Below, piece by piece: positions 13,797-18,081 of a DNA stretch of 64,000 bases (its first letter is position 1; every line of letters starts with the position of its first letter). The DNA is from Phycisphaerales bacterium. Lineage in GTDB: Bacteria; Planctomycetota; Phycisphaerae; Phycisphaerales; UBA1924. The notes beneath the pieces were generated by a model. It saw only the letters and a program-made list of their open reading frames with translations. It did no database searches and was not told where the DNA came from. The translations under genes were made by a program, and so were the position numbers. Location: assembly GCA_029260435.1 (NCBI GenBank), contig JAJDDG010000010.1, forward strand, positions 1-64,000. Direction: 5' to 3'.

Positions 13797-14069
13797 TCGT
13801 GCAGCGAGCATATCCGTACTTTTGGTGAGGGGGTGTCCGATATCGTGTATCCGGACGTCGGGAGGGGGATGTTTTATCGGGCGGAAAAAAGAGTCTCCGA
13901 TTGGGCAGTAGTGGGCGAGCTGGGTAGTCGATAGCTCACTTCGCGGCGCGAGTGAGTGAATAGGTGCCGCACGACTTAAAGAAATAATGGGCGATCAGCG
14001 CGCGCCGCGTGGGCGCGATCGGTGTCGCTCGTCGTGGGCTGACGGGCTCAACGATCAGGAGATTCGAAC
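13797..14069 (+). other. Intergenic leader with hairpins before the low-complexity gene
   Basis: No gene is seen. A 9-bp hairpin with one bulge lies at about 13936-13957 (CTCAC..GTGAG outer stem, TCGC/GCGA inner stem), and a second GC-rich inverted repeat at about 13990-14022. The last 15 nt hold AGGAG 8 nt before the ATG at 14070. The hairpins could belong to a long structured 5' UTR or to a terminator of the DUF1573 gene. Confidence 0.4.
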
Positions 14070-14813
14070 ATGTTCTGGAATAACTTCCCGTACTCGTACA
14101 ACTGTGGCAATTTCAATACTCCGTTTAACGGCACGCCCGGCTACAACAGCTGGATGCCTGGGCAGTTCCCGAATTGGAACAACTTTGGCGGCTTCAACAG
14201 CTCTTACCCGCAGAACTTCCACGGCTGGAACACCCCCGCGTGGAACTACGCCCAGTCCTGCTCCGGCGGTTCCTGTACACCATGGTCGTCCTACGGCTCG
14301 CCCTGGAATTACTCTGCTCAGATGCAGAACAACTGGGGCTCCAACTGGTCGATGCCGAACTCGTTCATGGGTTCCAACTACGACTGGAACTGCTCCACCC
14401 CGCAGCAGTTCGGGTGGAACGGGTACAGCGCGCCGCAGTTCGGGTACGGCTCCTTCCCGCATGGGTGGGACCAGTCGTCGTTCGGCGGATTCGACCAGCA
14501 GAACAGTTTCGGCGGTCAGCAGTTCCCCTACAGCTCGCAGATCCCGTTCGGGACCGGTGAGTTCCAGGGCATGGGCGGCTTCGGCGGTCAGCAGTTCCCA
14601 TACAGCTCGCAGATCCCGTGCGGCACCGGTGAGTTCCAGGGCATGGGCGGCTTCGGCGGGTTCCCTTACGGGTACCAGCACGGCATGGGGTTCGGCGGCT
14701 TCGGGATGCACCAGCACCCCGGTTTCGCGTCCGCACAGAGCTGCGCCCCGGGCTTCGCGGGTCAGGCGACTCCCGGCGGGTTCAACCCTGCCGTGGTCCG
14801 CGACGCTGCCTAA
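14070..14813 (+). CDS. Aromatic, Gly/Asn/Gln-rich low-complexity protein of unknown function
   Basis: A 247-residue protein built almost entirely of Gly, Phe, Asn, Gln, Ser, Tyr, Trp and Pro, with very few charged residues and six or so Cys. It begins MFWNNFPYSYNCGNFNTPF and has no signal peptide or membrane segment. A 24-residue unit (FGGQQFPYSSQIP.GTGEFQG plus MGG) is tandemly repeated at about 147-194. Two facts support this frame over an overlapping open frame at 13987-14844: a good ribosome binding site (AGGAG, 8-nt spacing), and codons ending almost only in C or G, as in a well-expressed gene. The composition is that of prion-like or phase-separating proteins; no homologue is recognised. 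Confidence 0.7.
   Translation: MFWNNFPYSYNCGNFNTPFNGTPGYNSWMPGQFPNWNNFGGFNSSYPQNFHGWNTPAWNYAQSCSGGSCTPWSSYGSPWNYSAQMQNNWGSNWSMPNSFMGSNYDWNCSTPQQFGWNGYSAPQFGYGSFPHGWDQSSFGGFDQQNSFGGQQFPYSSQIPFGTGEFQGMGGFGGQQFPYSSQIPCGTGEFQGMGGFGGFPYGYQHGMGFGGFGMHQHPGFASAQSCAPGFAGQATPGGFNPAVVRDAA
14508..14651 (+). repeat. Two tandem 72-bp coding repeats
   Basis: Units 14508-14579 and 14580-14651 encode 24 residues each and differ by one residue (Phe versus Cys after SSQIP), with only a few nucleotide differences. A partial third unit (FGGFPYG) follows. Confidence 0.85.
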
Positions 14814-14862
14814 TCTGACTCGATCGGAGGGATCCGCCCTCTGAGAAAATACGAATGATGTG

Positions 14863-14897
14863 TAGCGGCGGCCTAGCGGTCGCCGCTATGCTTTTGG
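14863..14897 (+). terminator. Possible terminator after the low-complexity gene
   Basis: TAGCGGCG and CGCCGCTA form an 8-bp stem with a 10-nt loop, followed by TGCTTTTGG. The T-tract is weak. It is the only hairpin of this kind between 14814 and 15015; the rest of that gap shows nothing clear. Confidence 0.4.
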
Positions 14898-15015: not shown

Positions 15016-18000
15016 ATGGGTCTTTTGCGTTGGATAGTCGGGCGTGGTGGCGAGACGGTGGAACCGGCGGTGCTCGAGGCGATGGAGCGTCGGGTGCTGT
15101 TGGCTGCGGACTGCCCGGTGATCGATGACATCACGGCGGACAATCGCGGTTTGGTCGTGATGCATGTGGATCGGGATCTGGTCTCGAGCAGCGTGAACTC
15201 GACGAGTGTGAAGATCTTCACTGCGGGTGCGGATGGGCTGTTGGGGACGGTGGACGATGTGGATACCGGGGCGTCGGTGGTGTATGACGACGGGACGGAT
15301 CTGATCACCGTGAAATCGGGGCTCGACGCGGACACGCGGTACATGGTGCGGCTAGACGCCTCGATGGTGGTCGGGACAAACGGGCGGCTGCTCGACGGTG
15401 AGTTCAACGGATCGGGGCTGGCGAGTGGTGACGGGGCTGAGGGTGGGAACTACGAGGTGTTCTCGCGCACCCCGACGACACTGATCGCGCGGTTCGTGAC
15501 ATCCTCGGGAACGATCAATGTGGAGTTGTTCCAGGAGGACACGCCGATCACGGTGGCGAACTTCCTGCGGTACGCGAACGAGGGGATCTGGGACGGGACG
15601 TTTTTCCATCGTTCTGCGGACTCGGGGGGCGTGCCCTTTATTGTTCAGGGTGGCGGTTTCTCTTCGACGACCCTCGACGCGCTGGAGAATTTCGGCGGCA
15701 TTCTCAACGAGTTCGGGATCTCGAACACGCGCGGCACGATCGCGATGGCGAAGCTCGGCGGCGATCCGGACTCCGGTTCGAACCAGTGGTTTTTCAACAA
15801 CGGTGACAACAGCGCGAATCTGGATAATCAAAACGGCGGGTTCACGGTTTTCGGGACGATTGTTGGTACGAGCGGGCTGGATGTGATGGACGCGATCGCG
15901 GCGCTGGACAAGGTCAACGCGGCGGGGCAGGGTGGGGCGTTCAACGAGGTGCCGGTGCTGGATGAGCAGACGGTCATTGATAATGGTGGCACGGTGACAG
16001 CGGGTGATCTGGTTGTTGTCTCACGGCTCTCGATCCTGGTGGATCTTTCTGGCGAGGCGTTCGGGCAGCTTGATGACACCGGTGCGGTGGTGATTACGAA
16101 CAACTCCGGGGAGGTGACGATCACGATCTACGATCTGACGCAGTCGGGGGCGCTGCTTGCGAGCTCGGACTTCGTGAAGGTCAAGTTCAACGGACGGCGG
16201 GTGCAGTCGATCGTGCTGCAGGATCCGTTCCCGGAGGCGACGGTGGGGATTTATATCGCGGGGGCGAAGAATGTGGGGACGGTGAAGGACAATCGGAAGT
16301 CGGGGGATGGCGATATCGCGTTTGTCGTGAGCGATTCGGACATTGGCACGATCAGCTTCCGGAATACGCTGGTGGGGTTCGATCTGAACGGGTTCGTGTT
16401 GCCGGGCGGGCTGCTGCTCGGTGAGGATGTAGACGGCGACGGGTCTGGCGATGACATGGTTGCGGTCTTTGTGACTGGCTCGCTTGGCAAACTGGTCATG
16501 AAAGATGGGCTGACGGGATCGGTCGTTAGTGGTGAGGGGATGCGGGCGGTGCAGGTGAAGGGGACCGTGGTTGATGCGGACTTCAACATCGGCGCTGATG
16601 AGACAGCGAATGGGCGGCGGACTTCGTTCGTCTTTGAGCGGGTGGAAGACACGAGCATCCGCACGGAGAACGAGATCAAGTCATTGAAGGCGGTTGACTG
16701 GCGCGAGATTGTTGACCCTGACGGGATGGTGATCCGGGCGGATTCGCTGGGCACGCTGAAGATTACCGGGAAGAAGCAGATCAATGTGGAGGGTTTGTTC
16801 GGCGCGGACATTGTGCTGCGTGGTGCCGAGACTGGGCTGACGCTTGGGTCGGCGAAGATCGCGGGAGTGATCCTGTTGTCTGACTGGTCGGTGGAAGGGG
16901 ATGCGGGCCGGGTGAAGGCGGGGGCGGACATCAGCCAGTGGGATTATTTGGTAACGGGTAATGCGGCACCGATCACGGCGTCGAGGATCTTCGCCGCGGA
17001 GATCCGGGTGGGTGGTGTGCTGAGTTCTCTGACGGCAACGGACTTCAATGGCGGCACGATCCTGGCGGGAACGGTGGGCAAAGTCCTGATGAAGGGCGAC
17101 AAAGATCGCGATGGGGATTTCGATGGGAACATGATCGTGATCGGGCTTCCCGATGAAGCGATCGTGATGAAGAAGTTTGATATCCGTGGTGATTTTATAA
17201 ATGGGGGCATAGATATTACGGGGGATTCGAGGGACTTCATTATCCATGGTGATGTGATCGACGCTTCGATCACGACGGCGGGCGACGTGAGACAGATCCG
17301 GGCGCGACGGTTCGACCAGGCGACGCTGATTATTGACGGGCAGCTCGACAAGCTCCAGGCTGAGCGTTTTCGGGATGGAGCGATCCAGGGTCGGACATTC
17401 CTGAGCATGGTGATGACGGGGAACAAGAAGGACGGCATCAACGGCGATCTCGACGCGGTGTTTTCCGTAAGCCGCGTTGACAAGATGCGCCTTGAGCGCG
17501 AAGGGAACATGAGTGGGATTTACCGGTTCACCGCGACGTTTGACATGATCATTGAGGGGAACATGGAAGATGCAAGGATCATCTACACCATTGATCTTGG
17601 ACCCAATCAGGCCATCTCCAAGCTCTGGGATGTTCGGGGTGGGATGATCAATAGCCAGATGTTCTCGCTTTCCGGCATGGGCTCGATGCAGGTCGGATGG
17701 ATGGAGGATTCCTATGTGTACGCCGGGGCAACGGAGGCGGCGAACGGGATCCCGGATCGGGATGAGCTGCCGTTGGATGGGAACACATCGCTCATCTATC
17801 GCGTGGATCGTGGGATGCAGAAATTCGTGGTGAAGGGGCGGAGTGACGGGGGTGCATCGTTCATCAACAGTGTTGTATACGCTGGCGCGGTTGGTGATGT
17901 GACGATTGTTCGTCCCGGAGTACAGAACTTCGGGACGCCGTTTGGGCTGGCGTTTGGCAGCGTGAGCGGGAACATCGTGACCAAGTTTGAGGACGGGACT

Positions 18001-18081
18001 GTTCGGGTGCGGACGGGTGATCCGGCGCCTCCTGCTGTCGGCGACTATCAGGTCCGGATGGATTTCCAGGAACCGGTCTAA
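15016..18081 (+). CDS. Large surface protein with LEPR-type N terminus and cyclophilin domain
   Basis: A 1021-residue exported protein. Near the N terminus LEAMERRVLLAAD matches the planctomycete LEPR-XLL motif of giant extracellular proteins. Residues of about 35-140 look like an SbsA-type Ig-like domain (SSVNSTSVKIF, DLITVKSGLDADTRYMV). A cyclophilin-type peptidyl-prolyl isomerase domain follows at about 150-300: INVELFQEDTPITVANFL, FFHRS, FIVQGGGFS, GTIAMAKLGGDPDSGSNQWF. The remaining 700 residues are beta-rich and repetitive, with alternating Gly/Asp turns and no recognised domain, perhaps a beta-helix. ATG with GGGAGG upstream. Monocistronic, by its wide flanking gaps. Confidence 0.82.
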   Translation: MGLLRWIVGRGGETVEPAVLEAMERRVLLAADCPVIDDITADNRGLVVMHVDRDLVSSSVNSTSVKIFTAGADGLLGTVDDVDTGASVVYDDGTDLITVKSGLDADTRYMVRLDASMVVGTNGRLLDGEFNGSGLASGDGAEGGNYEVFSRTPTTLIARFVTSSGTINVELFQEDTPITVANFLRYANEGIWDGTFFHRSADSGGVPFIVQGGGFSSTTLDALENFGGILNEFGISNTRGTIAMAKLGGDPDSGSNQWFFNNGDNSANLDNQNGGFTVFGTIVGTSGLDVMDAIAALDKVNAAGQGGAFNEVPVLDEQTVIDNGGTVTAGDLVVVSRLSILVDLSGEAFGQLDDTGAVVITNNSGEVTITIYDLTQSGALLASSDFVKVKFNGRRVQSIVLQDPFPEATVGIYIAGAKNVGTVKDNRKSGDGDIAFVVSDSDIGTISFRNTLVGFDLNGFVLPGGLLLGEDVDGDGSGDDMVAVFVTGSLGKLVMKDGLTGSVVSGEGMRAVQVKGTVVDADFNIGADETANGRRTSFVFERVEDTSIRTENEIKSLKAVDWREIVDPDGMVIRADSLGTLKITGKKQINVEGLFGADIVLRGAETGLTLGSAKIAGVILLSDWSVEGDAGRVKAGADISQWDYLVTGNAAPITASRIFAAEIRVGGVLSSLTATDFNGGTILAGTVGKVLMKGDKDRDGDFDGNMIVIGLPDEAIVMKKFDIRGDFINGGIDITGDSRDFIIHGDVIDASITTAGDVRQIRARRFDQATLIIDGQLDKLQAERFRDGAIQGRTFLSMVMTGNKKDGINGDLDAVFSVSRVDKMRLEREGNMSGIYRFTATFDMIIEGNMEDARIIYTIDLGPNQAISKLWDVRGGMINSQMFSLSGMGSMQVGWMEDSYVYAGATEAANGIPDRDELPLDGNTSLIYRVDRGMQKFVVKGRSDGGASFINSVVYAGAVGDVTIVRPGVQNFGTPFGLAFGSVSGNIVTKFEDGTVRVRTGDPAPPAVGDYQVRMDFQEPV

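Follow-up and report, generated by a model that had tools for sequence, protein, structure and literature searches.

The DNA analysed here, referred to as the window, comprises positions 1 to 64,000 of Phycisphaerales bacterium contig JAJDDG010000010.1 (64,000 nt). Between a DUF1573 gene and a large cyclophilin gene with a LEPR-XLL-like N-terminus, it carries a gene for a 247-residue protein of low complexity that is almost uncharged and rich in aromatic residues. This gene extends from an ATG at 14070 to a TAA at 14813; the sequence 5′ of 14070 contains no in-frame upstream start. The features of the locus are as follows:

14057-14061, forward strand: Shine-Dalgarno sequence AGGAG, 8 nt 5′ of the start codon
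14070-14813, forward strand: gene encoding the 247-aa low-complexity protein, uncharged and aromatic, characterized by frame, coding score, composition, spacing and protein-family membership
14385-14444, forward strand: weaker 30-nt tandem duplication, 80% identical
14508-14651, forward strand: two tandem 72-nt (24-aa) repeats, FGGQQFPYSSQIP[F/C]GTGEFQGMGG
14799-14810, forward strand: C-terminal R-D-A-A codons, the signature of the protein family's C-terminus
14860-14895, forward strand: terminator-like hairpin of 14 bp followed by TTTT, z −3.6 (hairpin proper, 14860-14891)

The open reading frame is a genuine coding gene. In a codon model whose training set was 126 long ORFs within 328 kb of the host genome, its frame scores +40. 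The overlapping frame at 13987-14844, which an earlier sequence-only reading of the locus had named as the competitor, scores −113 and is not conserved in its stead. The GC content at codon positions 1, 2 and 3 is 47, 54 and 86% in the gene, the last value being comparable with that of adjacent genes, versus 56, 83 and 50% in the overlapping frame. The ribosome-binding site is good, not exceptional: the AGGAG that had been described as strong is present, but ranks just 30th among the 125 ATG-start genes of the host. The structured leader proposed in the same reading did not hold up, as neither the 191-nt leader (z −1.6) nor its main hairpin (z −0.7) was more stable than dinucleotide shuffles. 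The leader DNA had no further copy in the host genome and no match in Rfam. Codon use is the sole indicator of expression level. The codon adaptation index of 0.71 resembles the ribosomal-protein mean of 0.69, but the gene ranks 57th of 235 once amino-acid content is allowed for, so the high expression suggested earlier is possible.

The protein has a highly unusual composition (G, 18.6%; F, 11.3%; S, 10.9%; N, 9.7%; Q, 9.3%; P, 8.9%; Y, 5.7%; W, 4.9%; K+R+D+E, 2.8%). Polar residues make up 56% of it (65% if Pro is included) and aromatics 21.9%; it possesses six Cys and lacks Leu and Lys throughout its 247 residues; at the Leu frequency of the host genome, the absence of Leu has a chance probability of 7e-11. 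Of the 235 genes modelled in 328 kb of the host, it is the most extreme for low charge, aromatics and N+Q, and it diverges furthest from the genome mean composition. This composition is no by-product of the base composition of the GC-rich genome: the protein is rich in Phe, Asn, Tyr and Trp, the codons of which are AT-rich in position 1 or 2, and the GC3 of the gene is still 86%. The ORF and composition given in the sequence-only reading were confirmed, as was its 24-residue tandem repeat, the two copies of which (14508-14579 and 14580-14651) are 96% identical in DNA and differ by a single amino-acid change, F to C. The reported absence of a signal peptide also stands, the N-terminus having no upstream start, no basic n-region and no hydrophobic stretch (N-terminal 15-residue Kyte-Doolittle maximum, −0.5). 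AlphaFold yielded no confident structure (mean pLDDT 34), although predictions from a single sequence are frequently poor in any case.

The aromatic residues of the protein are dispersed. Its 54 aromatics form one adjacent pair, versus 11.6 expected, and none of 5000 shuffles was as low; the dispersion persists once the second repeat copy is removed. In a control set of 154 host genes, adjacent aromatic pairs occurred at 0.997 of expectation. The aromatics are also evenly spaced (z −3.2), with a fraction of at most 0.0003 of shuffles being equally even. Asn, Gln, Ser and Gly showed no comparable dispersion. Prion-like low-complexity domains have been described as 60-70% polar and 15-20% aromatic with uniformly spaced aromatics, the remainder being ionizable, and as having glycine blocks segregated from polar residues (PMC9748015). 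The protein agrees with this description in its polar and aromatic content and in the uniformity of its aromatics; its Gly-polar segregation has a z of +1.4 and its charged residues amount to 2.8%. The prion-like character claimed from composition is therefore strengthened by an even spacing of which the sequence-only reading was unaware.

Similarity searches with the protein yielded nothing credible in the host genome, in 163, 400, 397 and 392 genomes of its taxonomic family, order, class and phylum, respectively, about 1,000 Planctomycetota genomes overall, or in GTDB contigs, IMG/VR and phages. The only matches were weak (E 0.003-0.006), and those inspected, at L002, L003, L044, L154 and L155, either overlapped ordinary genes on the opposite strand or in another frame, or were short chance matches. 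No annotated homologue or domain was found in Pfam, PHROGs, NCBIfam, the PDB, or phage, plasmid and viral collections, the PDB matches being due to chance only. The negative similarity searches carry no weight, since in a profile search over 91 genomes the protein-family profile, which included the gene, failed to recover the window's own copy. By contrast, searches of the 163 genomes of the host's taxonomic family for codon patterns (spaced Trp-Asn or Phe-Gly-Gly-Phe), followed by reading of the loci, revealed 25 relatives, spread over 15 further genera of that same family of Phycisphaerales. This count is a lower bound, as the patterns detect only Trp-Asn- or Phe-Gly-rich members; the window's gene was itself not caught by the triple codon pattern. 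The homologue search among Phycisphaerae proposed earlier failed by similarity and succeeded by codon pattern, bringing to light a family across at least 16 genera and a conserved Ala-Ala C-terminus, both of which the sequence-only reading had missed. The possibility that the gene is an orphan was ruled out on these grounds. No second such gene occurs in the ~0.89 Mb read of the 3.12-Mb host genome. Standard annotation overlooks protein families of this kind, no member being visible to Pfam or profile search.

The 25 relatives range from 145 to 456 residues, the shortest (in G005) being possibly partial. Most are 16-29% aromatic and 0.8-5% charged, the relatives have a high GC3 (mostly >75%), and most of the relatives are preceded by a purine-rich, Shine-Dalgarno-like motif. 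A charged-plus-hydrophobic N-terminal signal was visible in none of the 26 N-termini, and no member matched any Pfam family. Summed over the family, adjacent aromatics occur at 0.31 of expectation, and 22 members are individually more aromatic-dispersed than shuffles (p < 0.02). Against a profile built from the other members, the window's protein scores 16.4 bits, whereas 300 shuffles reach −2.9 at best; its best partner, from G091, aligns with a z of 10.2 versus shuffles. Its likeness to the relatives therefore exceeds shared composition. As a separate observation, the genome of relative G075 contains repeats with a 21-nt period, TGGAACGCGGTCATTGCTCCG and variants, in several places and on both strands (for example, C1:445297-445428 and C4:79228-79393).

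Sequence conservation in the family is concentrated at the C-terminus. In the four closest within-genus pairs, the last 20 residues are 80-95% identical, versus 54-76% overall. Twenty-one members, including the window's protein, end in Ala-Ala, as compared with nine of 235 host genes. The residue preceding Ala-Ala is Asp, Glu, Gln or Cys, and 11 of the 26 have the form Arg-Asp/Glu-Ala-Ala; the window's protein, ending RDAA, matches the family form [RNT][DEQ]AA. The five exceptions end in GV (G001 and G002), TI (G071 and G072) or VA (G106). Across close pairs, dN/dS is mostly about 0.3-0.6, the two exceptions being 0.9 and 1.3. The protein family is fast-evolving, its members lying in one taxonomic family of Phycisphaerales. 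The best explanation is that selection maintains composition, aromatic dispersion and the short Arg-Asp/Glu-Ala-Ala tail, not alignable sequence.

The order sdhA-sdhB-DUF1573-cyclophilin is conserved in close relatives of the host, which carry the names of Phycisphaerae/Phycisphaerales metagenome-assembled genomes, mostly with no insert and never with the low-complexity gene, so the flanking genes are little informative about its function. The neighbours read (sdhAB, DUF1573 and cyclophilin) include no modifying enzyme of the kind that would accompany a RiPP precursor. The cyclophilin gene (window 15016-18081) encodes a 1021-residue protein with a cyclophilin-type isomerase domain, a LEPR-XLL N-terminus near threshold and a long uncharacterised C-terminal region, and it adjoins sdhB/DUF1573 in several Phycisphaerales. 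In Co_bin.225 (G098), the place of the low-complexity gene is occupied by a gene for a 698-residue TPR protein resembling O-GlcNAc transferase (SPINDLY-like; L074 14084-16180), and a sulfotransferase-like gene lies on the opposite strand between DUF1573 and cyclophilin.

Elsewhere, the context of the family differs. In 11 of the 25 relatives, from seven genera, the low-complexity gene is arranged head-to-head with one encoding an exported protein that has a signal-like N-terminus and, in one case, a weak match to STN (secretin/TonB N-terminal) at E 0.004, below the curated cut-off. This exported family comprises L258 8068-9123 and its orthologues from 10 further relatives, and is a candidate partner of the low-complexity protein. 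It was not encountered at the window's locus, and the only STN-like match in the host genome falls within a 1267-residue protein with no low-complexity gene beside it. In other relatives, the low-complexity gene adjoins metallo-hydrolase or kinase genes. Low-complexity genes that share a context are probably orthologous despite their poor alignment.

The explanation we favour, to which we give an even chance, is that the gene encodes a cytoplasmic, self-associating sticker-and-spacer protein with an Ala-Ala tail that is perhaps a ClpXP degron. The whole protein would be disordered and reside in the cytoplasm; its evenly dispersed Phe, Tyr and Trp would act as weak mutual stickers and its Gly, Ser, Asn, Gln and Pro as soluble spacers, which together would drive self-association into a condensate or gel. 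The conserved tail probably serves as a recognition signal at the C-terminus. The most economical guess is a ClpXP-type Ala-Ala degron, which could limit the accumulation of a self-associating protein. Candidate physiological roles for the protein include those of a scaffold, a stress granule or a means of viscosity control. The sequence-only reading had proposed a cytoplasmic condensate or structural protein: its compositional basis is borne out and extended by the even aromatics, whereas the condensate and its location are still conjectural. Several observations count against parts of the favoured explanation. The exported neighbour in 11 relatives hints at an envelope role, and six Cys are unusual in a purely cytosolic disordered protein. 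The two pairs with dN/dS of 0.9-1.3 sit poorly with the explanation. Finally, the degron assignment is uncertain, as Asp, Glu, Gln or Cys replaces the Leu that precedes Ala-Ala in ssrA, and five of the 26 members lack the Ala-Ala end.

The strongest alternative, although we consider it unlikely, is that the family constitutes structural or adhesive surface or matrix material, silk-, cement- or curli-like, exported without an N-terminal signal and with the C-terminus serving in export or anchoring. Extracellular structural proteins can be rich in G, Y, W, N and Q and contain Cys; the signal-bearing head-to-head neighbour with its single weak STN match, and a short conserved C-terminus that could serve secretion, are likewise consistent with export. 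However, none of the 26 N-termini shows a charged-plus-hydrophobic signal, no upstream start could supply one to the window's protein, and no known secretion signal matching R[DE]AA-COOH was identified. Moreover, the neighbour is divergently transcribed, and is absent from the window's locus and from the other relatives.

That the protein is prion-like in the sense of assembling into solid amyloid or a heritable switch, as opposed to liquid condensates, is more doubtful still. The Asn/Gln-rich and Gly/aromatic segments would suit such a protein, and bacterial prion-like domains exist, as in Rho of C. botulinum (PMC4703818, PMC6400439). Those domains, however, are attached to folded proteins, whereas in the present case the domain makes up the entire protein; according to the literature, strong aromatic dispersion and abundant Pro and Gly would favour soluble assemblies over β aggregates. 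That the ORF is spurious or decaying is very improbable: the tandem duplications and the absence of annotated homologues or domains in the collections searched would be compatible with this, but it is contradicted by the codon-position composition, coding score, Shine-Dalgarno sequence and terminator, and by 25 relatives with GC3 mostly >75% and dN/dS mostly well below 1.

Returning to the sticker-and-spacer explanation, a tentative and less probable extension is that this taxonomic family of Phycisphaerales widely carries a stand-alone, prion-like organiser of the cytoplasm that phase-separates and is curbed by an encoded Ala-Ala degron. If true, bacteria would here have a counterpart to the condensate scaffolds of eukaryotes, concealed by a composition-based evolution that defeats similarity searches.

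Comparison with known systems places the protein as follows. Ala-Ala-COO− is what matters most in the ssrA degron, and similar ClpXP degrons with Ala-Ala occur in cellular proteins (PMC7652416). The window's protein shares this terminus with ssrA-tagged ClpXP substrates, and the host has a tmRNA gene (L061 15778-16126, contig C9; predicted tag ANTQYALAA). It differs in that Asp precedes Ala-Ala in place of the Leu that contributes modestly to an ssrA-like degron, and in that its tail is gene-encoded, not added by tmRNA. With curli CsgA it has in common a Gly/Asn/Gln/Tyr-rich composition, but neither a signal peptide nor a regular curlin repeat. As in FG nucleoporins, its spacers are uncharged and Phe-Gly-rich (10 FG dipeptides); however, there are no FxFG or GLFG motifs and no pore context, and an FG nucleoporin was rejected on the basis of the missing motifs.

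Prion-like proteins with dispersed aromatics are a hallmark of eukaryotic condensates; the known bacterial cases are mostly short segments appended to folded enzymes. Like the low-complexity domains of hnRNPA1 and FUS, the window's protein is polar and Gly-rich, about one-fifth aromatic and uniform in its aromatic dispersion, and its family diverges in sequence while retaining composition and patterning (PMC9748015). By contrast, it is a whole protein with no folded RNA-binding domain attached, is Trp-rich and bacterial, ends in Ala-Ala, and has far fewer charges. It has almost no Arg, so neither Arg-Tyr stickers nor direct nucleic-acid binding is expected. With the bacterial prion-like domains of Clostridium botulinum Rho and Ssb, which are sporadically conserved, it shares Asn/Gln-rich disorder and patchy conservation (PMC6400439, PMC4703818). 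Theirs are segments of folded housekeeping proteins, whereas the protein described here stands alone, has a conserved tail and belongs to a whole-protein family in at least 16 bacterial genera. A family whose body sequence is free to drift but whose aromatic dispersion and four-residue tail persist offers a natural experiment on the features required for self-association.
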